A DNA stretch of 64,000 nt. Origin: Halomarina salina. GTDB taxonomy: Archaea > Halobacteriota > Halobacteria > Halobacteriales > Haloarculaceae. The stretch spans positions 744,001 through 808,000 of the forward strand of contig NZ_JALLGW010000001.1 in the NCBI RefSeq assembly GCF_023074835.1. Reading direction: 5' to 3'. Both the position numbers and the translations under genes were made by a program. The notes beneath the pieces are model-generated. The model made no database searches, had not been told where the DNA came from, and saw only the letters and a program-made list of their open reading frames with translations. How positions within the stretch are numbered: position 1 is the stretch's first letter; each line of letters starts with the position of its first letter. Positions 34,937 to 59,645 of this stretch are shown here, piece by piece.

Positions 34937-34938
34937 GA

Positions 34939-38997: not shown

Positions 38998-39272
38998 TCA
39001 ACATTCCGAGTCGTCGGGATCAACTCCGACGAACGAATCGTTTTCAGTGGACACGAACCCTATTCCGTCGACCACCTCTCGTTCGGCGGCATGTTCACGA
39101 GCTATGTCGAAGGTCACCCACGTCGTCCCGTTGGTCGTCGAGGTGTATCCCCCATCTGCGAATCGATCGGTACCTTTGTCGCCTCGCCATCGCACTTCTC
39201 GGTCCGCCAGCGAACCCACTGCGACCGATCAGTCAATGCCGACAGCAGATTGTCACACGCGGGCAGACTCAT
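38998..39272 (-). pseudogene. Remnant of a phage NrS-1 polymerase-like/primase replication gene
   Basis: On the reverse strand, one frame gives MSLPACDNLLSALTDRSQWV and RWRTEKCDGEATKVPID. The next frame continues GGYTSTTNGTTWVTFDIARE, then DGIGFVSTENDSFVGVDPDD and a stop. Together these match the N-terminal region of haloarchaeal plasmid/provirus replication proteins (pattern QWVxWR...KVPI...TW..F..A...DGIGFV...D...G.D.D). The frame changes at a GGGGG run near 39165. The rest of the gene is gone. Confidence 0.6.
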
Positions 39273-43000: not shown

Positions 43001-43850
43001 CCTCAACGCGCTGGGCGTCGCTCGGTGTCAGCTCCGCTTTCGTCGGCTGAGTGTCGCGGTCGTCGTCCTCGTAGCGGGCGTAGATGCGCTGCTGGTAGCT
43101 GTCGGCCCCGTGTGAGAAACTCGGATACGGCCGCATGAGTACCTGGTAGACGATCGGAACGGGAGTGTTGACCATCGTCTCGATGACCGATGCCAGCGGC
43201 ACGCGCCCCCGTGCGCCCGAGGTCCCGGCCGCTGTCCCCTTTCGTTGGACGGTTCCCGTGCTGGCAGTGCTCGCGCCGCGCCCGTCAGCACGGGCCTGGC
43301 GCTCGATGCGATGGCCGTCCGTCCCCTCGCGGATCGCCCCGAACGACCGCAGGCAGGTGCGCCAGTCGCGTCGGCCGGCCGCACTCCCCCAGAACTCGAC
43401 GCCCGCGACCCACGGGTCGGGCAAGTCGTCGTCTGGTGTCGGACCGGCGTTGGCGAAGTCGGCCGGATGGAGTTCGACGTGCTCGAACTGGTAGGTGTCG
43501 GGGAACAGTCCCCGACAGACCCGTTCGAGGACGTTCGAGTTGCCGGGCGGGTCGACGCCAACGTAGTACTCGAGCCGGTTCGGGCGGCCGTGTGAGAAGA
43601 CGAGCCACTCGATGGTTGCCGTCGGTCGGGCCTGATACAGGTGCTGGAGCCGCGACCTAGTGTCGGCGGGTTTCAGACTGTGGAACTGGCGAAACTGTGC
43701 CGCGACCGTCCCCGGATCGAGCGTCCCCTCGGCGGGTTGGATGCGAAGGTATCGTCGCCTCTCGTAGCCGTCGCGAAGCGTCGTCCGAGCCCGTGGGTCG
43801 ACGTCGTTATCATCGGCGTTCCCGAACCAGTGCCCGAAAGTGTCAATCAT
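40053..43850 (-). CDS. HerA/TraD-like conjugation-type ATPase with zinc ribbon and nuclease-like C-terminus
   Basis: The protein is 1265 aa. An N-terminal ~450-residue region precedes an ATPase with Walker A GKTGSGKST (468-476), IIFDTGGLRSEAQRV, and a Walker B-like LYVEEAAS, as in VirB4/TraD/HerA DNA pumps of haloarchaeal plasmids. After about residue 950 come a CxxC/CC cluster (CADCDNRY...SCC), a winged-helix-like part, and a final domain with HRLDIAALDTDGDVIVPVEV resembling a D...ExE restriction-type nuclease. Likely role: moving or processing plasmid DNA. The nuclease assignment is inference. Confidence 0.8.
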   Translation of the reverse strand: MIDTFGHWFGNADDNDVDPRARTTLRDGYERRRYLRIQPAEGTLDPGTVAAQFRQFHSLKPADTRSRLQHLYQARPTATIEWLVFSHGRPNRLEYYVGVDPPGNSNVLERVCRGLFPDTYQFEHVELHPADFANAGPTPDDDLPDPWVAGVEFWGSAAGRRDWRTCLRSFGAIREGTDGHRIERQARADGRGASTASTGTVQRKGTAAGTSGARGRVPLASVIETMVNTPVPIVYQVLMRPYPSFSHGADSYQQRIYARYEDDDRDTQPTKAELTPSDAQRVEELTAKDARRSFAVNARAVALTGAATTTAINAAADLASTLDYLSHTSYSVFGRLHHDDELRELHEPPRGQQVLTDLETRTFYPPNYERFRTRLPFSYPRSRGVVADPSEAPSFCLLDSTVTAGGERGLAATASERAHRPRPPEAQLETYRTTGLTLGHPVTENGQTEPKPIAVPPTLQPLHAAWLGKTGSGKSTALVRAILDNHAATDGADILIAPKGDGLAEQYCRAHYARYGDLNDVIHFDCSEVLPAFSFFDIRAELQAGVGRTTAVEDVADHYLDILMGIMGRERFEQAVRSPDVIRYLVKALFDPVHGDDAYTHRALHQAARRMHERQTAPAVSDSDLERMLAGVTANRTQSFDEIMQGVANRIEKIPADERLGRVFNHVSDIPSTTHDSSTLPDTADDGPRFDLADHLDEDTVIIFDTGGLRSEAQRVLALVVLSNLWTALRRRKQAVAAIGTKRAGDDLTDTDDDPDRDTELAPADPADPLVNLYVEEAASIAISDLLQTLLAQARGFDCAITLAMQFPAQLRERSPSAYEEVLNNVSTLVTGNVPHDRPLAERLATDELNADAVGARLRALTRGEWLAALPAGFGDTEPRPFRLESGALPDGHPDGDDPLDDTGQVRFDAARTLATERTREAYGLTLTDPGTVEPESEVAEPDAASRVDSALPHTQRLPPMVTYDAASHALQCADCDNRYDPSIDGLRRAISCCSSLAEADRADIPICEVNLKLTADERAATEWSDTQLLFLQAVYNAQQLRYDPLEYDLLYDSMLRLEEYVGIDSEAVQDLLDTDVLRHDTDHPHRLFSVTPAGREVIGESYRQGVDYGHGQGDLEESSQHVLGVEVGRRWLEQEFVDNPDSPATEVVPYYDLPDSEHRLDIAALDTDGDVIVPVEVERVNNDLRKATPADFDKMAACDPEAAIWIVMSQRDGHAVLDALCDPADGDPRVEASYAETTPPQQFTIDTAGLTAMYPVRWLRDRLD

Positions 43851-43990: not shown

Positions 43991-44026
43991 AGTTGCTGGC
44001 CGCCCGCACAGGGGTGCGGGCGCGTC
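43991..44026 (+). promoter_or_regulatory. Shared upstream hairpin, copy 1 (before the 147-aa zinc-ribbon gene)
   Basis: AGTTGCTGGC leads into a perfect stem CGCCCGCAC/GTGCGGGCG with loop AGGG, ending 18 bp before the ATG at 44045. It shares the GGGGTGCGGG right arm with the copies at 48262 and 54941. Confidence 0.5.
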
Positions 44027-44044
44027 ACTGTGCCCCTGTATCCG

Positions 44045-44488
44045 ATGGCCGACCATCAGCCCCCTTCGACCGACGAGACCGACGTATCGCAGCCGGAGCC
44101 CCCCGTGGCCGACGTGGACAGCGCGCCCGGTGAGACCCCCGAGATAGCGTCGAGCGGGTCCGAGGCGGTCGCCCCGATCAGCGCGACGCCGCAGGACTAC
44201 ACCCGCTGTCCGAGATGCGACGCTCGGCGGTTCGTCGCCCGCCAACTGGTCTACGAGCAGCGCCAGTACGACGAGCAGGGCGACCTGACAAGCGCCGACG
44301 TGACCGTTCGGGCGGCCCTGGAGTACTGCTGTGCGGACTGTGGCACCCGACTCCGTGAGATGCCCGTGAGTCAGCCTGACTTCTACGGCGAGGTGGCCGT
44401 TCTCCGAGCGGACCTCGATGCGGCCGTGCAGCGACGGCTGGCGTGCTGGGTCGCCCGGCTCCGCGAGTACCACCCCGGTCGAGGCTAA
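44045..44488 (+). CDS. Zinc-ribbon protein of plasmid type, unknown function (147 aa)
   Basis: The first ~55 residues are acidic and disordered. Then CPRCDARRFVARQLVYEQRQ and YCCADCGTRL form two CxxC knuckles. The C-terminus is helical. No catalytic motif. The ATG at 44045 is used; a GTG five codons upstream is also in frame. It sits alone between two reverse-strand genes and has the shared hairpin upstream. Confidence 0.7.
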   Translation: MADHQPPSTDETDVSQPEPPVADVDSAPGETPEIASSGSEAVAPISATPQDYTRCPRCDARRFVARQLVYEQRQYDEQGDLTSADVTVRAALEYCCADCGTRLREMPVSQPDFYGEVAVLRADLDAAVQRRLACWVARLREYHPGRG

Positions 44489-44504
44489 ACCCCATCGCCC
44501 CCGC

Positions 44505-45299
44505 TCAGGCGAGCGGGTCGATCGTCTCGTACTGGTAACCGCACTCAATCGCGATCTCCAGACACTCCTCGGCGAACGACTCGATGGCGACGCCGGCCGT
44601 GCCAGCTCCGACGAGCAGCCGTTGTGTCAGCAGTTCGTTAACGAGGGCCTGCTTCGTGTCGACCTGTAGTGTCGGCAGCGTCCCGTGGATGTACCTGATG
44701 GGGTGGTCCTGGAACGTCTTGACACCATCCGACGACTCGCTGTCCGCGCTTCCGTCGACCTGGACGATCTGCCCCTCGCTCTCGCCGAGCACCTGCACCC
44801 AGTACTGGGTCAGCGGCGGGTCGGCCAACAGCGTCGTCGCCTGGTCGATCCGATCAGCGAGGCCGACGGGTTCGGGATACGGCTGGGCCTCCGGGTCGTA
44901 TCGCGGATACGCCTGCTGCACCCAGTCGACGATGCCGTCGACGAACTCGCGACAGACCGTCTCCGGGTCTGTTCCGGGGAGCGTATGATTCGTGAACACC
45001 CCGAGCTGGTGAGCGTAGAGCTGGCGGGCGAGCTGGGCGACCTGCGGGTACGCCAAGTCGTCGTGGTAGCCGGCGAGGTGTGCCGTCTGGTGGTAGGTCT
45101 GGGGTTCGCTGGCTCCTTCGGGTGCCTGGGCGAGCCGCGACCCGTCGCCGATCGCCTGCACCGAGAACGCGAGGACGTCCGGATCCTCAAGGTATTCGCG
45201 GGCCGTCTGTCGCCCCTCGACGAACGGGTCGTCGACGCCGTCGGTGAGAATCTCGACGAGCGTGGGGTCTGGAACTGTGGGCTGTCGGGGGTCGTCCAT
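44505..45299 (-). CDS. Hypothetical haloarchaeal plasmid-type protein (264 aa)
   Basis: The ATG at 45299 is chosen because GGAGG stands eight bases before it; a Met at 45332 is in frame. The sequence is acidic and helical, with YHQTAHLAGYHDDLAYPQVAQLARQLYAHQ in the first half and QYWVQVLGESEGQIVQVDG later. No known domain, signal or membrane segment recognised. It lies tail to tail with the zinc-ribbon gene. Confidence 0.65.
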   Translation of the reverse strand: MDDPRQPTVPDPTLVEILTDGVDDPFVEGRQTAREYLEDPDVLAFSVQAIGDGSRLAQAPEGASEPQTYHQTAHLAGYHDDLAYPQVAQLARQLYAHQLGVFTNHTLPGTDPETVCREFVDGIVDWVQQAYPRYDPEAQPYPEPVGLADRIDQATTLLADPPLTQYWVQVLGESEGQIVQVDGSADSESSDGVKTFQDHPIRYIHGTLPTLQVDTKQALVNELLTQRLLVGAGTAGVAIESFAEECLEIAIECGYQYETIDPLA

Positions 45300-45945
45300 A
45301 GGGTGGCCTCCGTGTGAGCCGTTCGCAGACATCGGTAAATACGTCAGTACAGCGTGGGCTGACAGTACCGAGCACGTGAGTGCCGACAAGACGGGGTGGT
45401 CGACTGGGGACGCCTCAGTGTGTCCGACCCCGTCGGGGGTGTCGGCCGTCGACGGTCGATAGTCGGTGATGCGCGGTGGCCCGCCCCACTCGGCGCTGCC
45501 GCCCTCCGCTCGCTCACGGCTCTCTGCTCGTGGCCTCCTGCCGGTCGGCCACGCATCGCTCGCCGTTCGCGTTCGAGGCGCTTCCGTCGGTCGCGCCTCG
45601 CGTCGCTCGCGACCGACCAGTCCGGGCGTGTGGCTCGCTCCTATCGTCGCTTCGCCATTCCGGGCGTGTGGCCTCGACGCCAGCGGGTAAGCGGGCGGGG
45701 TTGCGCTCCAGTCGGTGCTCACCCACACCCGCTTACTCCGCTGGCCGCTCGCTCCGGGCGGGTCGCACGCGCGGGGCTCTGCGTGTGCCGGTCACCTCGG
45801 GGCGCGCTCGCTCGCGCCCAGTGGCGCTCGCGAAGGCGCGAGCGAGCGCGCAGTCGTGACTGGTCGGGTTGTCGAGGGTGGAAAACCGCGATGTTAGAGA
45901 TCGCGGTGTCGGACGCTCAGTGAGCGCCTTCGGAGTTTGACTCCA
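45300..45945. other. GC-rich gene-free region full of CGCTCG-type palindromes
   Basis: About 650 bp with many CTCGCTCG, GCGCTCGCG and CGTGGCC...GGCCACG pieces. Open frames on both strands are Arg/Ser/Pro-rich shadows caused by the composition. The strong hairpin at 45802-45851 lies near the right end, 95 bp before the next gene. It may hold a replication, transfer or regulatory site. Confidence 0.5.
45802..45851. repeat. 17-bp perfect inverted repeat
   Basis: GCGCGCTCGCTCGCGCC (45802-45818) and its exact reverse complement (45835-45851) flank a 16-bp loop. It is the strongest hairpin in the window and is not directly after a stop codon. Confidence 0.7.
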
Positions 45946-46788
45946 ATGGCAACTAGGAACGTTTTCGGTAATGAAGTTTCGGTCGACGAACAGGGCTTCG
46001 AACAGACGGACGAGCGAGCGGTCGACGAGGACGGCTTCGAGGTGGTCGATGAGACCCCCGAGCTCCGAGCGAGCGTCCAACAGGAGATTCAGGCGAAGGT
46101 GGACGCGAACCACCCGGACGGGATGGTCACCAACGAGTACTCTCACCTGCCGCTGGCGACGGAAGAACGGATCAGAGGTCGCGAGGCGGAGTTGGAGCGG
46201 ATCAGCGCGAAGGCAACGCTGGGTCGGCAGTCAGGGCGTGAGCGGCGGACGCGAGTAGTCGTGACGAAAGTGTGTAATGGACGTGCGTCGACGCCGGATC
46301 CCAGAGCGACGCTCTCCCCCGAGGTACTGGGGACGGTGAACCGGCAGGCGGGGCGAATCGCCGAGCGGGTTGGCGGGGCGATGCGGGCGGCGCTTTCGAA
46401 GCGGATCGCCGAGCGGGTGGGGGGCAGTGTGGACGTGACCAGTGCGGTCCTCGACACGGTTGCCGAGCAGAAGGCGGCGGCAGGGTGCGTCGTGCCTATC
46501 GCGGAGGTGCCCGGTCTCGACACGTTCGAGGTGAGCGTCGAGGGCGAGTTGGTCCAGACCTGGGAAGCGTCGCACGGGGCTATCCAGCAGGTCGGGCTGT
46601 TGGCGGACGACAGCGGGCAGATCAAGCTGACCGTCTGGGAGAAAAGCGACCAGCCCTGGATCGACGAGGGCCAGCGCGTCCGGATCCGAGGGGCGGCGAA
46701 GAACTGGTACAACGGGCGGTGTAGCCTCGCGTTGACCTACGACAGCCAGGTGATCGTGCCCGAGCGCGGGCGGTGGTGGACCGGGTAG
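45946..46788 (+). CDS. OB-fold, RPA-like single-strand-binding candidate of plasmid type
   Basis: The protein is 280 aa from the ATG 45946. The acidic N-terminal half has no recognised domain. The C-terminal ~90 residues (ELVQTWEASHGAIQQVGLLA, then DDSGQIKLTVWEKSDQPW, GQRVRIRGAAKNWYNGRCSL) have the strand pattern of an OB fold like archaeal RPA/SSB. It could bind ssDNA during plasmid replication or transfer; inferred from fold and context. Confidence 0.65.
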   Translation: MATRNVFGNEVSVDEQGFEQTDERAVDEDGFEVVDETPELRASVQQEIQAKVDANHPDGMVTNEYSHLPLATEERIRGREAELERISAKATLGRQSGRERRTRVVVTKVCNGRASTPDPRATLSPEVLGTVNRQAGRIAERVGGAMRAALSKRIAERVGGSVDVTSAVLDTVAEQKAAAGCVVPIAEVPGLDTFEVSVEGELVQTWEASHGAIQQVGLLADDSGQIKLTVWEKSDQPWIDEGQRVRIRGAAKNWYNGRCSLALTYDSQVIVPERGRWWTG

Positions 46789-46807
46789 GCGCGTCGGTTC
46801 TGGGTTT

Positions 46808-47791
46808 TTATTGGTGGCCGGTCCACGCCACCCCGCCTCCCCACCCTCCGCTCCGTGCTCGCTCCCGACGGTCGCTGCGCGCGCAGCCACGACCGTACCG
46901 CCCAGGCGTCGGTGTGGCCGCGGTCGCCCCGATGCCGAGCGGTGACACGCCGCCTCCGTCGCGCTCACCCGCTCGTGCCGGTCGCCGCGTCGACCGGGAA
47001 CGCCGTGGTGCTGGGCCTGTCGCTCGCACCGAACTGCGTCCCTGCAACCCGAACCCGTGTTCGTTCTCCGGGGGTAACGGCCGGGACGTAGAGCCGCTCG
47101 CCGCCGTCCGTGTACGCGCTGTACAGCCATCTTCGGTGTGTGTCGCGGATTCCTCGACGGCGACGACACACTCCTCGCCGGGGGTCAACGGATACTGACG
47201 GCGCTGCCACCACTCGCGAGCCGTTCCGAGTGTTGCGACCGCCAGACTGCTACCGATGGCCACACCGATACCGAGCCACCACAGCCCGACGAGCCAGAGA
47301 CAAAGGGGAAGGACGCCGAGCGCGACCACCGGTACCATTGGTCGGAGTAGGCGGCGCATCCGACCCGCGAGGTAATACGCCCACGCGAGCATCCCGGCCA
47401 GCAACAGCGGCCACTCGTACTCGCCGATGGTCAACCCGAGGACGAACGGACCACCGTAGAAGGCGAGCTGCCTGCGTGTGGGGGTGACGACTCTGCGCTG
47501 CACGTCCGTTCGAAGCGTGTGACGCAGCCAGTGGCGTTCCCGTTCGAGACGGGCTTGCAGGTCTTCGACCGTCACCGGATCCGGGGACCCGGAACGGATC
47601 GGGTCGGGCGGCGCGGTCAGTCCGAAGAGGTCGGGACCTCGCCAGAGCAACCACGCTCTCGCCTCGTCGTGGAGTCGGTACAGGATGAAGCTGAGTATCA
47701 GTGCCCCAATCACCGCCGCAACCAGTCCTACAGGATGGATCTCCTGCAGGCCGTCGACGGCAGGAACCGAGACGCTTGGTCCGTGTGGCAT
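46808..47791 (-). CDS. Membrane protein with a probable frameshift near its 3' end
   Basis: From the ATG 47791, residues 1-220 look real: three or four membrane helices (LVAAVIGALILSFILY, PFVLGLTIGEYEW, VVALGVLPLCLWLVGLWWLG) and then PLTPGEECVVAVEESATHTED. After that the frame turns into Arg/Pro/Ser-rich shadow. The neighbouring frame reads LYSAYTDGGERLYVPAVTPG and onward to a stop at 46965, a far better continuation. One base seems lost near 47128 (GG|CTG). Function unknown. Confidence 0.6.
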   Translation of the reverse strand: MPHGPSVSVPAVDGLQEIHPVGLVAAVIGALILSFILYRLHDEARAWLLWRGPDLFGLTAPPDPIRSGSPDPVTVEDLQARLERERHWLRHTLRTDVQRRVVTPTRRQLAFYGGPFVLGLTIGEYEWPLLLAGMLAWAYYLAGRMRRLLRPMVPVVALGVLPLCLWLVGLWWLGIGVAIGSSLAVATLGTAREWWQRRQYPLTPGEECVVAVEESATHTEDGCTARTRTAASGSTSRPLPPENEHGFGLQGRSSVRATGPAPRRSRSTRRPARAGERDGGGVSPLGIGATAATPTPGRYGRGCARSDRRERARSGGWGGGVAWTGHQ

Positions 47792-47902
47792 ACGATACCA
47801 TCTGACTCGGACAGAATAGTTCCTTCGCCGTTCGGAACGAATGGAATCATGGGGGCCGCGCTGCAGTCGGGTTATCCGCGCCTGCAGGGGCGAGGCGTTC
47901 CA

Positions 47903-48241
47903 ATGACGACCCACCCACTCGACCGACTCTCGACGACCGCGCGTATTCTGAAACGCGCCCAGTACGAGGCGTTCGCGTTCTCACTGCTCGCCGACGGGGA
48001 CGTTCTCGTCCGCAACGAGAGCTACGCCAATCCGAGCGACCACGAGTACCGCGTTCGGGTTCGTGACGGCCTGCCTGTCGCGTGTCCCTGCCCGGCCGAC
48101 GAACGGTACGAGCACGCCTGCAAACACCGCGTTGCGTTGGCGGTACGGCGTCCGGTTCTCGACACCGCACGTGCCGCCCGAGCCGTCACTGACGCGGACA
48201 GGGCCGCGGCTGGTCTCTTAAGTCGGCGATCGACTCGCTGA
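47903..48241 (+). CDS. Small SWIM zinc-finger protein (112 aa)
   Basis: The core CPCPADERYEHACKHRVAL fits the SWIM motif CxCxnCxH. YEAFAFSLLADGDVLVRNES precedes it. SWIM domains bind DNA or protein in transposon- and plasmid-related factors. The ATG at 47903 is preferred; an in-frame Met at 47849 exists. It overlaps no neighbour and lies before the TFB gene. Confidence 0.75.
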   Translation: MTTHPLDRLSTTARILKRAQYEAFAFSLLADGDVLVRNESYANPSDHEYRVRVRDGLPVACPCPADERYEHACKHRVALAVRRPVLDTARAARAVTDADRAAAGLLSRRSTR

Positions 48242-48261
48242 CTACCCTCTCCTGCACCGCC

Positions 48262-48298
48262 GTCGGTTGTTCTTCCCCCCCGAGGGGTGCGGGGCGTC
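48262..48298 (+). promoter_or_regulatory. Shared upstream hairpin, copy 2 (before the TFB gene)
   Basis: GGTTGTTCTTCCCCC and CGAGGGGTGCGGGGCGT end two bases before the start at 48300. It has the same TTGTTCT lead and GAGGGGTGC centre as the copy at 54941. Confidence 0.5.
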
Positions 48299-48299
48299 G

Positions 48300-49268
48300 A
48301 TGAGTGTCCCGAGATCGACCATGCGACACCGAGCTATCTACGATACCGGCTTCGACGAGGACGAACAGAGTGGGTCAACCGCTGAGACGTGCCCGGAGTG
48401 CGACGGGGTGGTCCGAACGAACAGTCGAGAGACGGTCTGTGAGGACTGTGGGCTGATCATCGACGAGCAGGTGATCGATCACGGGCCGGAGTGGCGAACG
48501 TTCGACGACGATGGCACTCGTGACCGTGTGCGGACGGGCGCACCACTCACCGAACGCCGTCACGACCGGGGGCTCTCGACCGAGATCGGGAGGAAGCGTG
48601 ACGGGCGGGGTAACACGCTCTCAGGACGGAAGCGTCGGCAGCTCTCCCGGCTCAGACGCGAACACGGCCGCGCCCAGCAAGCCTCGACGGCCGAGCGCAA
48701 CCTCGCACACGGACTGGGGGAGGTTCGACGGATCGCGGGGACGATGGACCTCACCGATTCGGTAGTCGAGCAGGCATGTGCCCTGTTCCGACGGGCGCAG
48801 GGTGAGGACCTGTTGGTCGGTCGCTCGGTCGAGGCGATGGCGGCGGCGTGTGTGTACGCGACCTGTCGGTGTAACGGCCTTCCGCGGTCCCGTGGGGAGG
48901 TCGCAAACCAGGCCCGTGTCGCACGGTCCAGGGTCGTCGCGGCGTACAAGACGCTGAACCAAACGTTGCCGTTGCCGGCCGCACCGGTCCCCCCAGCGGC
49001 TTACGTCCCGTCGGTGGCCTCGACGGTCGGCCTCTCGGCGGGCACCGAACGGCTGGGGACGTTCATCGCCGAGCAGGCCCACGAGCGAGGGCTCTCGAAC
49101 GGGAAACACCCCGCAGGCGTCGCGGCGGGGGCGCTCTACCTGGCCGCGGAAGAGCGCGTCGAAGGAGTGACCCAACAGGCGCTCGCCGAGGCGGCGGACG
49201 TGACGGCGCTGACCGTCCGCTCACGATGGGTGGCACTCAGCAAGACCATCGATTGTGACGTGGTCTGA
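48300..49268 (+). CDS. tfb: Transcription initiation factor IIB (TFB), additional copy
   Basis: The protein is 322 aa; the start may also be the Met at 48321. The N-terminal zinc ribbon is CPECDGVVRTNSRETVCEDCG. The B-finger region HGPEWRTFDDDGTRDRVRTG follows, then two cyclin folds (AAACVYATCRCNGLPRSRGE; AAGALYLAAEERVEGVTQQ). Haloarchaea carry several TFBs with different promoter preferences; this plasmid-type copy may serve the element's own genes. Confidence 0.92.
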   Translation: MSVPRSTMRHRAIYDTGFDEDEQSGSTAETCPECDGVVRTNSRETVCEDCGLIIDEQVIDHGPEWRTFDDDGTRDRVRTGAPLTERRHDRGLSTEIGRKRDGRGNTLSGRKRRQLSRLRREHGRAQQASTAERNLAHGLGEVRRIAGTMDLTDSVVEQACALFRRAQGEDLLVGRSVEAMAAACVYATCRCNGLPRSRGEVANQARVARSRVVAAYKTLNQTLPLPAAPVPPAAYVPSVASTVGLSAGTERLGTFIAEQAHERGLSNGKHPAGVAAGALYLAAEERVEGVTQQALAEAADVTALTVRSRWVALSKTIDCDVV

Positions 49269-49391
49269 GCTATCGAAGAACGGACTTACCGGCTGAAAAG
49301 TGAGCTGCCCGCTCAGATCCGTCTTCGTCTACTAGACGTTGCGACGCGCTCAATGTATGAGCGTGAGCGAGAGAGATCAGCCACTGGAATG

Positions 49392-49429
49392 GATTGCCGG
49401 TACTGATTGACAGAGAGCGTGAATCTAAC
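49392..49429. repeat. Intergenic repeat family R, copy 1
   Basis: GATTGCCGGTACTGATTGAC followed by AGAGAGCGTGAATCTAACC. It lies in the 244-bp gap after tfb, which holds no gene. Related copies are at 50272, 50921 and 51690. Confidence 0.5.
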
Positions 49430-49512
49430 CGGAGTACCGGTGCAGTATCCCTCCGGGACTTTTCACATCAGACTGTCACGCCAGTGTTTCTCATCTCGAT
49501 TACTTGACCCTC

Positions 49513-49830
49513 TTAAACCAATGGGTCAACGTCGGTGATGTGTGCGCCTCGTGAGACCGTCTGGGCCGTCGTATCGAATGAAACGATATCCTCGTCGGCA
49601 AGCTTCGGAAGGTCACGATGCATCAGTGCGACCTCCATCTGCTCGTAGTCCGTTTCGTCAGCCATTGACGACGTATCGACCATTCGAGTCGCGACTTCAC
49701 TGGCGAGGAGTTCGAGTTCGTATTCGCTGTCGTCTTCTGAGAGAATATCGACGATCACCCGTCGTCGCTCAGTCGTCACGGCCTCGAAAGCAGCATTTTT
49801 GGAGATCCCCCCCGGTTCGTACTCACGCAT
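49513..49830 (-). CDS. Small winged-helix-like haloarchaeal regulator (105 aa)
   Basis: FEAVTTERRRVIVDILSEDD looks like the first helices of a winged-helix domain, and LELLASEVATRMVDTS and VALMHRDLPKLADEDIVSFD give the recognition helix and wing. Proteins of this kind (short HTH domains next to HalOD1 proteins) are common haloarchaeal regulators. It diverges from the HalOD1-like gene, sharing a ~100-bp promoter region. Confidence 0.7.
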   Translation of the reverse strand: MREYEPGGISKNAAFEAVTTERRRVIVDILSEDDSEYELELLASEVATRMVDTSSMADETDYEQMEVALMHRDLPKLADEDIVSFDTTAQTVSRGAHITDVDPLV

Positions 49831-49934
49831 ACTGATACTAACTGACGTATCACAACACGCTAATTGTTTCGGTCAGAGTTCTCCCCGAAATATATTACTC
49901 ACTGGAATCCAGAGCAATCACGTGAGCGAATAGT

Positions 49935-50246
49935 ATGGATGAAGCTGCTCCAGGTCAGACCGGGTCGGCTGAGCACTACACATACGATATTGGTCCAGAA
50001 GATCCGATGAGTGCAGCCATCGTCTATGCGGCTGCTGATGCCCTCGATTGTGATCCATTAGCGATGCCCGAGTTGCTGTACGATGCCGTCAATGTGGATG
50101 CTCTTGATGCAATGTACCCTCGTGACGGTCACAAGCACTCCGATAATCCGTCGGTCTCGTTTCGTTACTGTGATCTCTCGGTTACCGTTGATGGTGACAC
50201 AGTCGTATTGGATGCGACGACTATTGTCGACCAATCTGATGGCTAG
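49935..50246 (+). CDS. HalOD1-type output-domain protein (103 aa)
   Basis: AAIVYAAADALDCDPLAMPELLYDAVNVDALDAM and the C-terminal SVSFRYCDLSVTVDGDTVVLD match the layout of the haloarchaeal output domain HalOD1, here standing alone. Such domains act downstream of bat-type sensors and response regulators. It diverges from the winged-helix gene. Confidence 0.72.
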   Translation: MDEAAPGQTGSAEHYTYDIGPEDPMSAAIVYAAADALDCDPLAMPELLYDAVNVDALDAMYPRDGHKHSDNPSVSFRYCDLSVTVDGDTVVLDATTIVDQSDG

Positions 50247-50271
50247 TCGCTGCTGTGTATCGAACTGCGTC

Positions 50272-50310
50272 GATTGCCGGGAATGATGAGCTGAGAGCGT
50301 GCGTGTATCA
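50272..50310. repeat. Intergenic repeat family R, copy 2
   Basis: GATTGCCGGGAATGATGAGC then TGAGAGCGTGCGTGTATC. It is a diverged copy, 25 bp after the HalOD1-like stop. Confidence 0.4.
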
Positions 50311-50358
50311 CTGACGACCTCGATGTGACTCGGTTTCTCGCCCAGTCGTATTCTCTAT

Positions 50359-50841
50359 TCAGCTATCGAAGGGCCCCGAAGCATTCGTGGTCGTACTCAC
50401 CCACGAGAAGTCACCCGCTTCGTCCACGATACCTTGGACGTAATTGTAGTAGTCACGGTCGTCGGGAACGGGTGAGAGCGGAACTCGACCCCCATTTTCC
50501 GGAGCGGTCCCGTCGATAGTGAACTCGACGAGATAGACCACCGGTTCGGTGAACACGGCTTCAAACGTTTGGGTCTCTCCGGGAGCGACAGATGCGGATG
50601 CTCGAAGATTCCGTTGTGTCTTCGGAATCGTAACGTCTCCGCGAACATCGTATCCCTCTCCGGTTGTCACAGGCTCAGCACCCACGGCACTAACAGCGAC
50701 GCTGATGATGTGTGGAAGCTCGTGGTGATTCTCGAATCGCAGGGTACCAGCTGGAATGCTCTCGCCACGAATCCGACTACATCCAGCGAAACTCACTGCA
50801 CTCGCAGTACCAAGGGCGGTAAGGAGGGCACGCCGATTCAT
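50359..50841 (-). CDS. Secreted lipoprotein of unknown function (160 aa)
   Basis: The N-terminus MNRRALLTALGTASAVSFAGC has an RR pair and a lipobox FAGC with Cys21, so it is probably a Tat-exported lipoprotein. The rest is beta-rich, e.g. GTLRFENHHELPHIISV and ETQTFEAVFTEPVVYLVEF, like a small beta sandwich that would face outward. No known family. Base use is more AT-rich than its neighbours. Confidence 0.75.
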   Translation of the reverse strand: MNRRALLTALGTASAVSFAGCSRIRGESIPAGTLRFENHHELPHIISVAVSAVGAEPVTTGEGYDVRGDVTIPKTQRNLRASASVAPGETQTFEAVFTEPVVYLVEFTIDGTAPENGGRVPLSPVPDDRDYYNYVQGIVDEAGDFSWVSTTTNASGPFDS

Positions 50842-50920
50842 ACGAATGTATTATTGCTTCCACATATGTATGTTCGGCCACAGAATATGTACTGAGACAC
50901 TCACGGCACGTGTCGCTCAC

Positions 50921-50960
50921 TCTGCGCTATCGAGAGACACAGAGCGTGAGTCTATCGAGG
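50921..50960. repeat. Intergenic repeat family R, copy 3
   Basis: A partial copy that keeps the AGAGCGTGAGTCTATC core after CTATCGAGAGACAC. The rest of 50842-51260 holds no gene. Confidence 0.4.
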
Positions 50961-51269
50961 TGACTGTCGTCGACGTATGTAATCCCCACAAAGGATACCC
51001 CTACTGACCAGAACCATGAGGAACCGCCGTCAACCATGGATGAATAGTTGTGCAGTTACACCGGTCGTACAAACCGTACACACGGATTTTGAGGACGGTT
51101 TACAGCTACCTGTGGATGCCCGACTCTGTCGACACTTCCTCGGAAGACGTGACTGTCAGAAGTATATTTGAAACACACACTACTGAAATTTTGTTTATTT
51201 AATATTTGAGACTGTGTACTATTCTGTTACTTTTATCAGCCCGTTCGTGGAGGGCGCAGTGTGGGACGA

Positions 51270-51524
51270 ATGCGAACGCTGCTTCCGTGGTGGCTTGGCG
51301 CGCGGTGGATGGACCGGCAGGTTGACGCGCTGTACGAGGCGGTCGTCGACGGCGCACAGGAGAGCGAGGCAGCCGTCGAGCGATTGGGTGACCTCGCAGC
51401 CGACGGGAACGAACTGGCGGCGGCGGCGCTGCGCGAGATAACTCGCTCGCTGGACGCACCGCTGGACGCCCGCGTGCTGGCGAAGCAGACGCTCGCAGCC
51501 ACGGGACACGTTCACTCGGCCTGA
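51270..51524 (+). CDS. Small helical protein of unknown function (84 aa)
   Basis: The sequence MRTLLPWWLGARWMDRQVDA continues as a regular helical repeat (AAVERLGDLAADGNELAAAALREITRSL). A GTG at 51261 is an alternative start. GC-rich codon use marks it as coding although it has no known relatives. Confidence 0.5.
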   Translation: MRTLLPWWLGARWMDRQVDALYEAVVDGAQESEAAVERLGDLAADGNELAAAALREITRSLDAPLDARVLAKQTLAATGHVHSA

Positions 51525-51689
51525 AGACAGTTACAACCGCAGTACGCGGTGGGTCGGGTCCTCGGCGGCTGGTTCGAAGCCCAGTTCCGCGACGATGGCC
51601 TCCATCGTCGAGGGGACGCTAGCGGTCGTACGTACCACGTCGGCTCCGGCCGCTCGTTGGCGACGACGACTAAGAACGCGTGCTGCGTT

Positions 51690-51727
51690 GATTGCCGGTT
51701 TTGATAGACGCAGAGCGTGAGTCTAAC
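51690..51727. repeat. Intergenic repeat family R, copy 4
   Basis: GATTGCCGGTTTTGATAGAC then GCAGAGCGTGAGTCTAACA, closely matching copy 1 and lying after the small membrane gene's stop (51749). Confidence 0.5.
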
Positions 51728-51748
51728 ACTCTTCACACTCAGCGCGAG

Positions 51749-52039
51749 TCAGAAGGCGGTTCCGAGCACGAAGAACCCGCCGAAGCAGATGGTAGCGACG
51801 ACGAGTGTTCCGACGAAGAGTATCACGTCGTCACGACCGGTTGCATGTCGGCGTATTCGGCGTCGACTAACTGGTGCGAGTGCCACTGCTGCTCCGAGTA
51901 GCCCGAGACCACCAATCGCTGGAAGGACTGCCGTGAACACTCCCGCAGCGGCGTGGAGAGCGGCGATACCAAGCAACCCGAGTGCGAGGGTCAGGTCGAG
52001 GGCGCTTCCCGTGTACCGGGCGACGGAGGCGACTGCCAT
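51749..52039 (-). CDS. Small membrane protein (96 aa), unknown function
   Basis: Four hydrophobic segments: TLALGLLGIAALHAAAGVF, VLPAIGGLGLLGAAVAL, then after an Arg/His-rich loop, VILFVGTLVVATICFGGFF. The start is taken at the inner Met (52039); an outer Met at 52072 is possible. No known family. Confidence 0.6.
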   Translation of the reverse strand: MAVASVARYTGSALDLTLALGLLGIAALHAAAGVFTAVLPAIGGLGLLGAAVALAPVSRRRIRRHATGRDDVILFVGTLVVATICFGGFFVLGTAF

Positions 52040-52073
52040 ATCAACGCGTAGATACCCTGCTGGTAAATTCATT

Positions 52074-52178
52074 ATGACTGACCTGCCTGTCGATGTGGAC
52101 CCCGCTGTCAGACTCGCGGCACAAGTCTATCAGCTGAATCTGGTGAATTCTGATGAAAGAAAGATGGCTCTCAGGTGA
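52074..52178 (+). CDS. Possible 34-aa protein
   Basis: ATG 52074 opens MTDLPVDVDPAVRLAAQVYQ and runs to a stop at 52178. The composition is haloarchaeal-like and acidic, but it is very short and has no recognised relatives. Confidence 0.3.
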   Translation: MTDLPVDVDPAVRLAAQVYQLNLVNSDERKMALR

Positions 52179-52192
52179 TGCAGCGCCTACGT

Positions 52193-53566
52193 CTACACTT
52201 GATAGACGTACGCGTCGTCCCCGAGATCGTCGGGATAATCTCCCACGGCCCACCCGATACCAGTCGTTTCGATGTAGTAGTACTTCTCGCCCTGATACTC
52301 CCAGTAGGAACCTGTCATGGAGTCGTCACCGAGGATGCCAACACCCATGTGTCCCGGTGGCTGGATGAGGACTGTATCGTAGCCGAACGGTTCGAGCTGC
52401 AGTAGCGACGCGAGGAGCACCGACGTGTCCTCACAGTCCCCACCACAGTCACCCATCACCTCGGCGATGTACTTCGTGTAGTCGTCGTACCCCGTCGACA
52501 CGTCGTCGGGGACGTACGGGATGTGCTGGATGACATCGATAGCGAAGTTCGCAATTGACACGTCGCTTTCGAGTCCCAACGCTCGCGCGTCCTCCGTGAA
52601 CAGATTGCCGAAGAACGAGGCGAAGCCGCTGTTCATCTCGTAGGTGACGAACTCCGAGCGTGAGCGGCTGTGACTGCGCTTTCGAGCGGCCAGGTAAGCA
52701 TGCTTGTACAGGTAATAGCTCGTCGTGAACTGCTGTCCCTGCGAGCGACCACTGAGTTTGACGCTGATCGCCCCCTCTTTGACGAGCAGTTCGTGATTCT
52801 CACTCTCGCTATCTGAAAGGGCCTGCAACGCCGCTGGCTGAGCCGTTCGTCGAAGCTGGCCGTTCGATTCCTTCTCGATGAAATCTGTCTGATGAATCGT
52901 TACCACTTCCGAGCTATCGACCTCTTCGAGTGCTCGTCCTTCGGGGAGCAAGAGGACGAACAGCTGGAATCGGGTCTCGGTTGGGAGACTCGACACATCG
53001 AGATCGACACTCGATCGAGTGTCGGCGTTGCGATAGGTGATCGGGTCCCCTCGGCCCACAACGTCGAGCATGTCTCCGTCCTCGTTGATCGCAAACACCG
53101 TGGATTCCAACCCGCTGAACTGGCTCAGATTCGGGTCTGCACCTGTGAGAATCATCCCAAGACGTTCCGAGGAGTACTCCTCGATATGAGAGATGTTAAA
53201 GTCGCCCTCTACGGTGATCGTGTTCGTCGGTGGCGCAGGAGTCGGTGTTCGGGTAGTTATAGCGGTCGGTGTCGGCGTTGCCATTGGAGTCGGCGTCGGC
53301 GTCGGTGTCGCTGTCCGGGTGACGGGCGTCGTGGTTCGCTTGCCTGGCTCGCCAGCGAGATCCGACCGCTCTTGGACTGACCCGTCTTTCGGCGCGTAGT
53401 CTTTCGAGTCGATAACTCCATCCCCATCACTGTCTTTGATCGCTGGTTCTTGCTGTGCATCCTCTTCGCCGAGGCAGCCAGCGAGTGTCATCGTGGCCGT
53501 ACCCCCGGCGGCGAGGAGCAATCGCCGCCTCCGAACTGACTCAACCGTATCCTTCGAATTGTCCAT
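52193..53566 (-). CDS. Surface lipoprotein with a transglutaminase-like domain
   Basis: The protein is 457 aa with a Tat motif (RRRRLLLA) and lipobox LAGC. A calcium-binding-like DSDGDGVIDSKD motif lies near residue 46, then a Thr/Pro linker (TATPTPTPTPM). The C-terminal half carries GDCGGDCEDTSVLLASLL (nucleophile Cys) and GHMGVGI (His), the core of archaeal transglutaminase-like cysteine proteases/ligases. It may cut or cross-link surface proteins; inferred. Confidence 0.82.
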   Translation of the reverse strand: MDNSKDTVESVRRRRLLLAAGGTATMTLAGCLGEEDAQQEPAIKDSDGDGVIDSKDYAPKDGSVQERSDLAGEPGKRTTTPVTRTATPTPTPTPMATPTPTAITTRTPTPAPPTNTITVEGDFNISHIEEYSSERLGMILTGADPNLSQFSGLESTVFAINEDGDMLDVVGRGDPITYRNADTRSSVDLDVSSLPTETRFQLFVLLLPEGRALEEVDSSEVVTIHQTDFIEKESNGQLRRTAQPAALQALSDSESENHELLVKEGAISVKLSGRSQGQQFTTSYYLYKHAYLAARKRSHSRSRSEFVTYEMNSGFASFFGNLFTEDARALGLESDVSIANFAIDVIQHIPYVPDDVSTGYDDYTKYIAEVMGDCGGDCEDTSVLLASLLQLEPFGYDTVLIQPPGHMGVGILGDDSMTGSYWEYQGEKYYYIETTGIGWAVGDYPDDLGDDAYVYQV

Positions 53567-53756
53567 ACAGTTTCGCAGAATTACATATTGATAAACTTAT
53601 CCGATTTTCATACACTCACAAAAATGGTGCATTCCGTCCTCCGTCAGAAACGGTGAATGTGAATCGAACGCACACAACCGAGAGCCAACACGACCGATAT
53701 TCGTCGGTACCACCTCGCCTCGAATCGTCACTGTTCCGTGGCTTTTGACACGGCAT

Positions 53757-53786
53757 GTTTGTTCTCGCCAGCATGGGTGCTGGCGG
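53757..53786 (+). promoter_or_regulatory. Shared upstream hairpin, copy 3 (before the 167-aa gene)
   Basis: TTTGTTCT leads into the perfect stem CGCCAGCA/TGCTGGCG with loop TGGG, 27 bp before the ATG at 53814. The stem sequence differs from the other copies but stays paired. Confidence 0.55.
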
Positions 53787-53813
53787 ACCTGAACCCGTCA
53801 GCGGACGACCAAG

Positions 53814-54317
53814 ATGCACCAACTGATCTACGCACTCGTGGAGGCATCGACTGCAAGCGACGCGCTGGCCCGCGCGCACAGTGTCTTTGATGGGCTGACT
53901 GGGCCCGACTTGCAGATCGCACCGGTATTCGACTACTACGTGACGTTCGACGACGACTCCTCGACGGTCGCTGGCCCTGCGCGGTGGGGCGACCTCCCGA
54001 CCGTCGTTCGTGCTGACTCCCCTGCCGGCCGGCGACTCATCGACCGCGGGTGGGCAGCGACCGAACGTGAGTTCCAGCGTGACCTCGCCCGTGCTCGAGA
54101 CACACTCGACCGACTCTCGGATGCAGATGTGATGCGTGACGTCGAACTCGCCCGCTATACCTGTCGACGTCTCGGTGCGCGTCGTGGCCCACCGATCTCC
54201 CTCTACGATGGGTCGGGGCAGGGGGTTCGGGACCGCGAAACGCTCGATCGGCTGCTGGCTCGAGAACGCGACGCCGATTTGTTCCTGTGGGTCGTCCCTG
54301 CGGACGTTCACTACTGA
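53814..54317 (+). CDS. Plasmid-type protein of unknown function (167 aa)
   Basis: MHQLIYALVEASTASDALARAHSVFDGL opens an alpha/beta protein with YYVTFDDDSSTVAGPARWGD and a helical middle (ERDLARARDTLDRLSD). No motif or membrane segment. It stands first of a plus-strand run with the next two genes and carries a shared hairpin upstream. Confidence 0.7.
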   Translation: MHQLIYALVEASTASDALARAHSVFDGLTGPDLQIAPVFDYYVTFDDDSSTVAGPARWGDLPTVVRADSPAGRRLIDRGWAATEREFQRDLARARDTLDRLSDADVMRDVELARYTCRRLGARRGPPISLYDGSGQGVRDRETLDRLLARERDADLFLWVVPADVHY

Positions 54318-54479
54318 CGGCGAGGGCGAGTGGCCACTTTCCCGACGCCGAAAGTCCCTTCTGACCGACGGGAGAGTGCTACCAGACAGGTTCACAGGTA
54401 GTAACCAGTGAAAGCATGACTCGTCGGTGACCCGCCTTGTGGTCGGTCTGTACGCGCCCGGAGCGCCGGAGGCGCGATA

Positions 54480-54797
54480 ATGTCAGACGATTCTGAAATT
54501 GAGGTTCGATTCCAAGCAGCGTTCGACGCGAACGGCGCGCTCGAAGTGACCGAGACGAGCGTCGAGACGTCACTAGCGGATTTCGGCGCGGCCGTCGACT
54601 ATCGCGAGCGCGACACGCGGCGTGCTAAGCCCGCAGCCAGCGAGTTCGGTGTCGATGACCGCTCGAAGATTGACCAGCGTGGCGACCGAGGAAGCGAGCA
54701 GTCGCGGCTGATCGCCCAGACAGATGCGACGCAACGAGCGCTGGACGGCACCTCGGCACGACATCCAAATCTGTACGAACAGCCGCCCTCGGAGTGA
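54480..54797 (+). CDS. Small hypothetical protein (105 aa)
   Basis: MSDDSEIEVRFQAAFDANGA starts an acidic then Arg-rich, mostly disordered protein. No known family. It lies in the plus-strand run between the 167-aa and the DUF932-like genes. A GC-rich palindrome (CGCGCC...GGCGCG) sits just before the ATG. Confidence 0.5.
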   Translation: MSDDSEIEVRFQAAFDANGALEVTETSVETSLADFGAAVDYRERDTRRAKPAASEFGVDDRSKIDQRGDRGSEQSRLIAQTDATQRALDGTSARHPNLYEQPPSE

Positions 54798-54940
54798 TGC
54801 CCCGTCTCGCGTTCACTCCCTCGCCCGTGGTCGGTTCCGGTTGGCTGGATGACTCCCGAGTCACCAGTGGTGTCGACCCCGTCCGCTTCGCGGCGACCGT
54901 CATGGAGAACGGAGCGACTGAACCGCTGTCGTCTCCGCAC

Positions 54941-54977
54941 GTTGGTTGTTCTGCCCCGCGAGGGGTGCAGGGCGTGT
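54941..54977 (+). promoter_or_regulatory. Shared upstream hairpin, copy 4 (before the DUF932-like gene)
   Basis: GGTTGTTCTGCCCCGCG then AGGGGTGCAGGGCG, 42 bp before the ATG at 55020; close to the copy at 48262. Confidence 0.5.
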
Positions 54978-55019
54978 GTGTCCTGCCGGTCAGCCGTGAC
55001 CGATTGAGAGGTGTCTGAA

Positions 55020-56201
55020 ATGCAAGAACCAGGACGCCGGCACGTGTTCGCTGGCATCGACAGTCGCACCGACACAGCACTCCCCGCTTGGTACGCTGAC
55101 CGCGTTGACGACACAGACGAGGTGATGACGTTCTCCGAAGCGATTCGCGACCTCCCGCGAGCCACGACCACCGAGGTCGCCTACCGGAATCCGGTAAGCG
55201 ACGAGTGGGTCGAAACCGAGCGGTTCAACGCCGTCGCCGAACCCTCGCGGCTTCGTCAGCAGGCGACGGGCGGTGGTGGTAAGAACGTGGCCGATGGAAG
55301 CGGTAGCGAGAGCGTGGACCCGCTGTTCCACGTCCCCTCGGACTCGTACACCATCCTAAATCCCGTCGAGGTGTACGCACCCCTCGAACGGGTTCTCCGC
55401 GAACAGACCGTCGACGGCCGTCGACTGGCGGAGGTGGCGTTCGGCGAGATCAGGCAGTATCGCGGGGGTGGGGAAGTCCACATGGACGTACTATTCGACG
55501 GGTTGGAGGTGACGCTGTCCGACCGACGTGACCCGATCACGATGGGCGTCACGTCGGGCTATGACTTCTTCGGCGGCCACGCGGTGTACGTCGAAGGCTT
55601 TGCGCGTGATACCGCGTGCGCGAACTCGATCCGGTCGCTCACCAACAAAGAGGTCGTGCGACATGTCGGCGGTGTCGAGGCATTCGACGACTGGTGGGAG
55701 GAGATTCTCGGACAACTCGATCTCGTTGCGGACGACCTCGCGGGGTTCATCGACGCGGCCCAGGGGGTGACGCTCGAGTTCACGGACCTGCCGTTCGATG
55801 TGGTGGGGTTCTACGACTTACTTGACTTTCCGCAGTATCTCGCCGAGCAGGCGGCTAGCGACGTGCGGGCGAACGCAGTGAACCCCTTCGAGATCGATAT
55901 GTGGACGCTGCATTCGGGCGCGACGTACGCGCTGACCCATCACTTCCGCGGGAAGGAGGGGACGTCACTCGACGGCTATCAGCGCGTCGCCAACGACGTC
56001 CTATTCAACCCCGAGGCGACCATCGACCGCGTTCAGCAGGCCTACGAGCAGCAGACAGAAGAGGTCGAGCAGGAAGGGCTGACCAGTGGGCGTGGGCAGG
56101 CCCGCATCGAACAGGTCGGAGACGATCTTCGGGACGCGGTCGAGCAGTTCGAGTCCCGTGAGGAAGCGCTGCGTGAGCGGTTCACGCAGGTGTCGAACTG
56201 A
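55020..56201 (+). CDS. DUF932-like phage/plasmid protein
   Basis: The protein is 393 aa from the ATG 55020, with GAGGTG eight bases before it; an in-frame GTG 55011 exists. SDSYTILNPVEVYAPLERVL and GSGYDFFGGHAVYVEGFARDTACANS-like text (55570-55630) resemble the DUF932 family, whose members are mostly in phages and plasmids. A C-terminal helical coiled coil ends the protein. Function unknown. Confidence 0.65.
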   Translation: MQEPGRRHVFAGIDSRTDTALPAWYADRVDDTDEVMTFSEAIRDLPRATTTEVAYRNPVSDEWVETERFNAVAEPSRLRQQATGGGGKNVADGSGSESVDPLFHVPSDSYTILNPVEVYAPLERVLREQTVDGRRLAEVAFGEIRQYRGGGEVHMDVLFDGLEVTLSDRRDPITMGVTSGYDFFGGHAVYVEGFARDTACANSIRSLTNKEVVRHVGGVEAFDDWWEEILGQLDLVADDLAGFIDAAQGVTLEFTDLPFDVVGFYDLLDFPQYLAEQAASDVRANAVNPFEIDMWTLHSGATYALTHHFRGKEGTSLDGYQRVANDVLFNPEATIDRVQQAYEQQTEEVEQEGLTSGRGQARIEQVGDDLRDAVEQFESREEALRERFTQVSN

Positions 56202-58232: not shown

Positions 58233-59474
58233 TCAGTTCTCGCGTGGAGCGAACCGCCCCACACTTCGATCGAACAGATGGACCGCTGGCTGTGCCAACC
58301 AGCCGGTACTCCTATCCACTGCTGGATTCGGAGTTACTTTTCGTCGTATGTTCTCGGCCCCATTCACGTCAGCATTCGCCACGGTATCACAGGTTTCACA
58401 GACGTACAATCCGCGTTCGACGCGCTGATCGCCGTCTCGTGTCTTACAGACGGAGCAGGTCGCCGAGGTACCACGTTCTGACACTTGCTCGACCGTGACG
58501 CCTTCGGCCTCAGCTTTGTACCGGAGGATCGATACGAATCGGTCATAAGCCCAGCTGTGTAGGTCCCGATTCCCGCGTGTCCCCCAGTTGCGAGTCTCGC
58601 CCGTGTCGTCAACTCGGATTCCGTTGAGGTCACCCACGGCGACCGTTCCGATATCTCTCTCGACACACTCCCTGACGATGTGCTTCGTCAACGTATGGAT
58701 GAAGTGGGTTCGACGCTCGGTACGTATCCTGTCGAGGCGTTTTCGCTGGCTCGACTGTGAGTCGTCACACTTTCCTTTCTGTTTCCCGAAGTAGTACTCA
58801 TCTTGCTTCAGGACGTTACCGGGGAACAGGATTGACTCGCCGCCGAACGAGAGCGCGGCGATATTGCTGATCCCCAAGTCGATTCCTGCGGTACCGGCCC
58901 CTGGCGGTTCAGGATCAATCGTCGTTCGACAGACGAACTGCAATCGCCACTCTCCACGCTTGTGAACTGCCCGAATTTGCTGAATCCGCCACTCCGAGAG
59001 ATCGATATCGGGGCGCGTACGATACTCACAGAGAATGAAGTCCAGGTGCCGTTCCTTGAGATTCGTTCCCTTCGAGAGACGAACGCGACGATGTCGTGCA
59101 TCGTGTCTGAATCCGTCTGCTTTGAACGTGACCGTCGACCGTGGGTGAGAGCCATTCCGTTTGCGATAGCCAGGGGGCCGAGCATTGTCATCCCCGTTCT
59201 GGCGTTTCGCCTGCCAGCTGTCGAACGCTTCAACGAGTTCTTCGAAAACGCGCTGACTGGACTGCGAATGCAGATCCCTATAGCGCTCGTGACTGTTCAA
59301 CGTGGATTTTAGCTCCCTACCTTCGGGTATCTCTCCCGTTGCTTCCCACCGTTCTTGGATGTAGTATCGGGCTACGTTCCAAAGCTTCGAAGCTGCGACC
59401 CCGAGTGCGTCAAGGTGGTCACTCACTTGACGTTGATTCGTGACCGTCGCTTCGAACGTTCGAATCGTGCGCAT
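58233..59474 (-). CDS. tnpB: TnpB, IS200/IS605-family (IS1341-type) RNA-guided nuclease homologue
   Basis: The protein is 413 aa from the ATG 59474 (an in-frame GTG five codons upstream at 59489 is possible). RuvC-I is GIDLGIS (Asp199) and RuvC-III is ADVNGAEN (Asp369). A zinc ribbon has CSVC (340-343) and CETC (359-362). At the RuvC-II position the text is VAVGDLNG, so Gly281 stands where Glu is usual. No tnpA is present. Hairpins TTCCC/GGGAA (58192-58211) and GAGGGT/ACCCTC (59582-59596) flank it and could mark its ends and the guide-RNA scaffold. Confidence 0.9.
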   Translation of the reverse strand: MRTIRTFEATVTNQRQVSDHLDALGVAASKLWNVARYYIQERWEATGEIPEGRELKSTLNSHERYRDLHSQSSQRVFEELVEAFDSWQAKRQNGDDNARPPGYRKRNGSHPRSTVTFKADGFRHDARHRRVRLSKGTNLKERHLDFILCEYRTRPDIDLSEWRIQQIRAVHKRGEWRLQFVCRTTIDPEPPGAGTAGIDLGISNIAALSFGGESILFPGNVLKQDEYYFGKQKGKCDDSQSSQRKRLDRIRTERRTHFIHTLTKHIVRECVERDIGTVAVGDLNGIRVDDTGETRNWGTRGNRDLHSWAYDRFVSILRYKAEAEGVTVEQVSERGTSATCSVCKTRDGDQRVERGLYVCETCDTVANADVNGAENIRRKVTPNPAVDRSTGWLAQPAVHLFDRSVGRFAPREN

Positions 59475-59645
59475 TGATGGTTGTTCCACGGCCGCAGTGG
59501 GAGACAGCGTTATCTGGCCGCGGTATGGTATATAAACCTCTGGGTCCAGTCTCTCTATTGAGTCGATGAGCAGTCCGTTATGAGGGTGATACCCTCTCTT
59601 GAGATCTCGGAAGGCTGATAGTCTCCCACCCGTTTTGCTTGCTCA

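Follow-up and report, generated by a model that had tools for sequence, protein, structure and literature searches.

Hairpins with family-specific stems before many genes of haloarchaeal plasmids, a module that may act on entering single-stranded DNA

The window analysed here (64,000 nucleotides (nt) of Halomarina salina, assembly GCF_023074835.1, contig NZ_JALLGW010000001.1, positions 744,001 to 808,000 of the forward strand) contains an accessory element in which four copies of a hairpin lie on the plus strand, each shortly before a gene of that strand. An earlier note, made from the sequence alone, had placed them there, and all four are present where it put them. The first (43991..44029) has a degenerate T lead and a stem of 9 base pairs (bp), CGCCCGCAC/GTGCGGGCG, with the loop AGGG; the second (48262..48302) combines a TTGTTCT lead with an imperfect C/G stem and the loop GAGGGGTGC; the third (53757..53790) has the lead TTTGTTCT, an 8-bp stem CGCCAGCA/TGCTGGCG and the loop TGGG; the fourth (54941..54980) has the TTGTTCT lead again and the arms TGCCCCGC/GCAGGGCG with one mismatch. 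They score 24.2 (E 3.9e-5), 33.9, 24.4 and 30.6 bits, respectively, with our covariance model R1, the training set of which (22 sequences) includes these four and plasmid copies, so that R1 matches to those come by construction. When window positions 28000-64000 were searched unfiltered with R1, the four copies had E values from 4.9e-8 to 3.9e-5, and the next-best candidate (E 0.024) fell within an opposite-strand ATPase gene. The note had described a TTGTTCT-like lead and a GGGTGC centre as common to the copies; the combination TTGTTCT...GGGTGC has three occurrences in the window, where shuffles would give 0.02, and the copy at 43991 departs from the exact lead, reading AGTTGCTGG. The two stems quoted there are correct. 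Folded singly as DNA, the copies at 43991 (z -2.8) and 53757 (z -4.3) did better than all 200 shuffles and those at 48262 (z 0.4) and 54941 (z -0.8) no better than shuffles; the claim that the stems differ and stay paired therefore holds well for the former two, while for the latter two it rests on relatives. A scan of the window with Rfam at the gathering threshold returned only a tRNA, with no match for the hairpin.

The genes that follow begin 20 nt (ATG at 44045), 23 nt (48321), 26 nt (53814) and 44 nt (55020, with the Shine-Dalgarno sequence GAGAGGTG) past the end of the stem. These distances amend the previously given range of 2 to 42 bases, since the start of the TFB gene lies 23 nt from the stem and not 2; we moved it to 48321 because the homologues from four named plasmids align from residue 1 there. 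This gene (48321..49268, plus strand) matches plasmid TFBs at 55-57%. The first gene (44045..44488, plus strand) codes for a zinc-ribbon-like protein (Zn_ribbon_8, E 0.005, under the Pfam cut-off). The third (53814..54317, plus strand) codes for a protein of 167 amino acids (aa) that matches 163-aa plasmid proteins at 50-54%, and to judge from its matches (125 plasmid records) it is widespread on haloarchaeal plasmids. For the fourth (55020..56201, plus strand, 393 aa) a DUF932-like label had been proposed and has to be dropped, as neither Pfam nor NCBIfam gave a DUF932 match; it matches PHROG 13083 (function unknown) instead. Its relatives were found in 119 of 391 genomes of the class and in 54 plasmid records, and a hairpin lies within 110 nt of the start at all 30 loci fetched, the window locus counted in. 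The stretches searched of two haloviruses with homologues of this gene gave no hairpin match at E 1 or better, and the exact patterns of two common stem types had no match in viral contigs. In some loci (L038:1411-1462 among others) its hairpin has a tandem GGGCGC-A-GGGCGC on the 3' side, which offers two possible partners to the 5' arm GCGCCC, and in one (L061) GCGCCTC/GAGGCGC takes the place of the GCGCCC pairing.

The hairpins form a large family. A covariance model trained on nothing but the four window copies (R2), the check that the earlier note had proposed, finds more copies before genes in related plasmids: across 448 kb from four named haloarchaeal plasmids, three of them complete, it gave 46 matches with an E value of 1 or less, and 45 of these are on the strand of the hairpin block. 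On these plasmids a similar hairpin stands before many other genes, with stems that are quite different. R2 gave no matches in the loci L073, L076, L077, L079 and L080, where the genes are for the most part those of cargo, replication and maintenance. With R1 there were 388 matches at E 0.05 or better in 73 sources (1.70 Mb), and when the 150 best R1 matches (set A2) were used to train a scorer without gaps, it gave 404 matches at a score of 14 or more, against 4 in reversed sequence. A phylum-wide search of 148 genomes gave little outside the order: eight genomes with a single weak match each (E 0.0012-0.01). The bare pattern TTGTTCTN{4,18}GGGTGC had been tried on 146 genomes of the family and matched at the level of the reversed control, and was replaced by the structure models; a pattern match on contig C2 of the same genome as the window showed no such structure by eye and was judged to be chance. 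The family is apparently undescribed, and the literature that our searches covered gave no description of the hairpin or of an archaeal leading region.

The stems covary. In 71 distinct aligned copies 90.1% of the cells are paired against 70.9% in shuffles, with a covariation score of 0.448 (shuffles 0.121), 107 double-changed cells (shuffles 42) and a pairing of 58% or less when the partners are slid, in an alignment that was fitted to the model and so leans towards structure. Independently of this alignment, different gene clusters have arms that are unrelated but paired, e.g., CGCCGGC/GCCGGCG, CGTCCCGC/GCGGGACG, GAGCCTCC/GGAGGCTC and GGGG/CCCC. What the families have in common is a T-run, with T at 76-86% in four positions, and a loop reading A.GGG(T/C)G; the position profile of 257 distinct copies has only the T-run, C/G stems without AT boxes and the G-rich loop. 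The module is built as a T-run, 1-3 nt, a stem of about 8 bp with a family-specific sequence and a G-rich loop. That a selected structure is common to genes of the accessory element, as had been suggested from the four copies, is supported by the pairing above shuffles and slid controls and by the further copies found with R2.

The 404 matches reduce to 342 distinct copies, and 333 of these are followed by an open reading frame of at least 50 codons that starts within about 130 nt (nine are not). Among the 320 with an ATG start, 175 have no Shine-Dalgarno sequence, and in 139 of them the start lies 15-29 nt past the stem; in the 145 that have one, it lies at 32 nt or more in 111 and at 6 nt or less in 21. 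In the annotated plasmids 48 of 50 matches (score 10 or more) are directly before annotated genes, including those for TFB, ArdC, DUF6735, DUF6166, DUF6610, the 163-aa protein and the 393-aa protein. Leaving out 14 of 448 matches (score 12 or more), the other 434 lead to 37 clusters of downstream proteins, 13 of which are singletons. At least 20 unrelated gene families are preceded by the hairpin, and the larger clusters each have a stem of their own. The ArdC family, with its N-domain confirmed, has hairpins in 28 sources. Many copies start 1-26 nt after the stop codon of a gene on the same strand, and 11 of 47 hairpin genes have an upstream neighbour on the opposite strand. In three families (fam 9, 10 and 17; e.g., L066:7173-7209, L084:13995 and L118:6238) a Shine-Dalgarno sequence (GGAGG) lies inside the 3' arm, 7-9 nt from the ATG; overall, GGAGG is found in the 3' arm in 30 of 51 matches at a distance of 8 or less versus 4 of 383 others (Fisher p 2e-28).

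All hairpins of a given source lie on one strand, in 68 of 68 sources (score 14 or more). At a score of 12 or more the plasmids pNG600, pJ7-1 and pHAR02 hold 11, 10 and 12, respectively, each on a single strand, and in four annotated blocks a hairpin precedes 42 of 102 genes on the block strand versus none of 32 on the opposite one (Fisher p 1e-6). There is also a linkage to type IV secretion genes. On the same three plasmids the block comes after a same-strand operon with VirB4 or coupling-protein homologues and xseA/xseB, and in two of them the transfer operon has an annotated primase. The transfer genes of pJ7-1 are annotated as hypothetical; its 1275-aa protein is a homologue of the ATPase in the window (40053..43850, minus strand, 1265 aa), a homologue of type IV secretion coupling-type ATPases that matches pJ7-1, pHAR02 and pNG600 proteins at 30-34% and HerA/DUF87 weakly. 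VirB4 relatives were found in 88 of 145 genomes of the class. When the best 150 hairpin matches listed were compared with 116 VirB4 places, 57 of 83 hairpin clusters had a VirB4 on the contig and 26 had none; the strand of the cluster was that of VirB4 in 50 of the 53 clusters within 100 kb, 36 of these 50 lying downstream of VirB4 in linear coordinates, and in two of the four beyond 100 kb. Four further hairpins were found on the 143-kb contig C4 of the window's own genome (G000:C4:81021-107428); all are on the minus strand, as is a distant relative of VirB4 (29%) on this contig.

In the window, the same plasmid backbone includes a gene like those for replication factor A (RPA) and ssDNA-binding proteins (ssDNA, single-stranded DNA) at 45946..46788, plus strand, which is 49-55% to plasmid RPA/DNA-binding proteins and before which the R1 search found no hairpin. 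An IS605-type TnpB (58233-59489, minus strand) adjoins the element, which looks like a rearranged or decayed integrated plasmid. Window positions 29000-40000, with an oligopeptide/ABC transporter operon, are of low GC (51-55%) in a window otherwise at 66-70%. In 1.63 Mb of plasmid blocks we also counted 137 copies of a second repeat, TTAACCAACR-N20-24-YGTTGGTTAA (reversed control 0; e.g., L064:4052-4093, L067:19867-19908 and L065:28593-28634), of which the window has none. All 28 copies in annotated loci are intergenic. Less stringent scanning gave 141 copies, and 57 of these were upstream of a hairpin at a distance of at most 120 nt. Probably the repeat is a double-stranded operator for a regulator that acts plasmid-wide, and it may serve to turn off the genes behind the hairpins.

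Haloarchaeal TATA/BRE promoters are found upstream of start codons and have an AT-rich box. The hairpins share a promoter-like distance to the start but are GC-rich and lack such a box. We found no AT-rich peak before the T-run or between hairpin and gene, and only about 1% of the copies (weighted) had a TATA-like word at 20-50 nt ahead of the T-run. In the annotated plasmids a TATA-like word at -50 to -18 was present in none of 48 hairpin genes versus 34 of 228 others with 80 nt or more upstream (p 0.001), a deficit that is partly trivial as the GC-rich hairpin fills that place, which does not affect the count before the T-run. As for the nature of the helix, pair changes within families gave 20 G-U and 17 A-C (few events, without a positive control), which differs from an expectation of 4:1 with a binomial p of 3e-4, the ratio being our own assumption. 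Earlier raw counts of flanked cells were 22 G-U and 44 A-C, and a substitution count by single linkage had lumped together 205 of 257 sequences and was replaced by the count per gene family. A shared switch, be it of RNA or of DNA, as the earlier note supposed, is a reasonable hypothesis.

In bacterial conjugative plasmids, anti-restriction, single-strand binding protein (SSB) and similar genes are located in the leading region, on the transferred strand, behind the ssDNA promoters Frpo/ssi (PMC11541004, in the main text of which the word archaea is absent). The haloarchaeal hairpins are like the Frpo/ssi of F-type plasmids described there in that inverted-repeat structures stand on one strand before genes of what would be a leading region, near genes for anti-restriction and ssDNA-binding proteins. 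Unlike Frpo, which mimics a bacterial -35/-10 promoter in the folded strand, they have an 8-bp stem, no promoter boxes, an archaeal transcription machinery and about 10 copies per plasmid; boxes of the Frpo type did not appear in the 257-copy profile (Frpo sequences themselves were not compared). In pLS20-type Bacillus plasmids a long establishment gene regulatory sequence (EGeRS) is repeated before ardC and other operons, the mechanism of EGeRS1 being given as unknown; its authors consider ssDNA promoters unlikely there, given how long it is, which strand is nicked and that it lacks a promoter (PMC8708921). ArdC is required in recipients and not in donors (PMC7213743). The likeness to EGeRS1/EGeRS2 is that one regulatory sequence precedes several establishment operons including ardC, as the hairpin precedes ardC and other putative establishment genes, and that EGeRS1 has inverted repeats and no strong promoter. 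It differs from the hairpin in its 400-600 bp with many repeats, and the p576-type element is a double-stranded promoter plus operator (both compared by description only). We have not filed the hairpin as Frpo or EGeRS because its anatomy (8-bp stem, T-run, G-rich loop) fits neither, though the logic of its placement is alike. With Rfam cis-regulatory RNAs it shares a conserved loop, a covarying stem and a position upstream of genes, and it departs from them by falling below the gathering threshold and preceding many unrelated genes.

The best reading, to our mind, is that the module is the archaeal counterpart of the bacterial sequences that regulate establishment (leading-region) genes, most likely acting on entering ssDNA. 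That it regulates in this way a large number of establishment genes, on conjugative plasmids of haloarchaea and on integrated relatives of these plasmids, we hold as a proposal with a little less than an even chance. The plasmid strand reaching the recipient would be single-stranded; folded hairpins on that strand, together with the T/A run beside them, would be the places at which transcription (perhaps also priming) of the adjoining gene begins. Transcription before second-strand synthesis would make TFB, ArdC and other protective genes early and transient, and once the DNA had become double-stranded the hairpin genes would be largely silent, because they have no TATA boxes. The stricter form, an archaeal ssDNA promoter made of T-run and short hairpin that would start RNA polymerase without TATA on incoming conjugative ssDNA at 20 or more gene families, and would be the first described archaeal establishment regulon, we consider less likely than not. 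Several observations weigh against action on the entering strand. In three families the ATG is only 3-6 nt past the stem and the Shine-Dalgarno sequence sits in the 3' arm; the arm must therefore be transcribed, and the start cannot be downstream of the hairpin in those families, which weakens our former idea of a transcription start fixed 20 nt past the hairpin in leaderless genes. A hybrid is possible, in which transcription starts on ssDNA at the T-run and runs through the hairpin. As a duplex, a stem of 8 bp offers too little length for a complete TBP/TFB/polymerase complex, in contrast to Frpo (PMC11541004). Should most opposite-strand genes in the blocks be cargo, that would account for some of the strand bias. 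Three of the 53 clusters disagree with the nearest VirB4 strand (G147:C2, G167:C7 and G199:C1), although for the first a minus-strand block found later at 122-128 kb fits its minus-strand VirB4, and the coupling ATPase in the window is on the strand opposite to the hairpins, divergent from the first copy. Moreover, single-strand transfer is an assumption, because no relaxase or oriT was identified for these plasmids and MOB-suite types all 54 plasmids with a match to the 393-aa gene as non-mobilizable; in the literature covered by our searches, no description of an oriT, a relaxase or a leading region of a haloarchaeal plasmid was found.

A serious rival, which we consider a real possibility though not a probable one, is an mRNA leader, a transcribed hairpin to which a plasmid or host factor would bind, at the U-run or the hairpin, and so set the translation or stability of all these genes jointly. 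Every copy is on the coding strand, with the start codon in most cases 3-55 nt further on, the 3' arm doubles as Shine-Dalgarno sequence in the three families named, and the copies close behind a same-strand stop make co-transcription possible. An RNA helix should favour G-U, however, and the few pair changes had no such excess over A-C; neither is there a promoter-like sequence upstream, even though some hairpin genes have an opposite-strand neighbour there, and a leader alone does not explain the tie to conjugation genes. One might also think of a TATA-less promoter or operator in double-stranded DNA, to be recognized by the plasmid TFB together with the TBP that one plasmid, pHAR02, carries. 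TFB adjoins hairpin genes on plasmids, a spacing of 15-29 nt is promoter-like for leaderless mRNA and the second, palindromic element suggests that protein-type operators exist on these plasmids, but a stem free in sequence and kept in pairing is unlike a double-stranded site read by its sequence, and the distance to the start varies by more than 10 nt; we find this unlikely. Less likely still, indeed improbable, is that the hairpin is a single-strand initiation site for second-strand synthesis by a plasmid primase and its proximity to genes a by-product. The primase gene in two transfer operons would agree with it, as would the naming of Frpo and ssi together as ssDNA promoters in bacterial plasmids (PMC11541004), but priming has no need of a tight placement before the start codons of at least 20 gene families.

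In the literature that we searched, no account was found of how archaeal plasmids express their genes on entering a new cell. Across Halobacteria the hairpin picks out plasmid genes as candidates for a part in establishment; most have no known function and are promising candidates for anti-defence roles. Its strand would provide a direct handle on which plasmid strand is transferred. If the module does act on entering ssDNA, it would represent a TATA-free route to the start of transcription in archaea.

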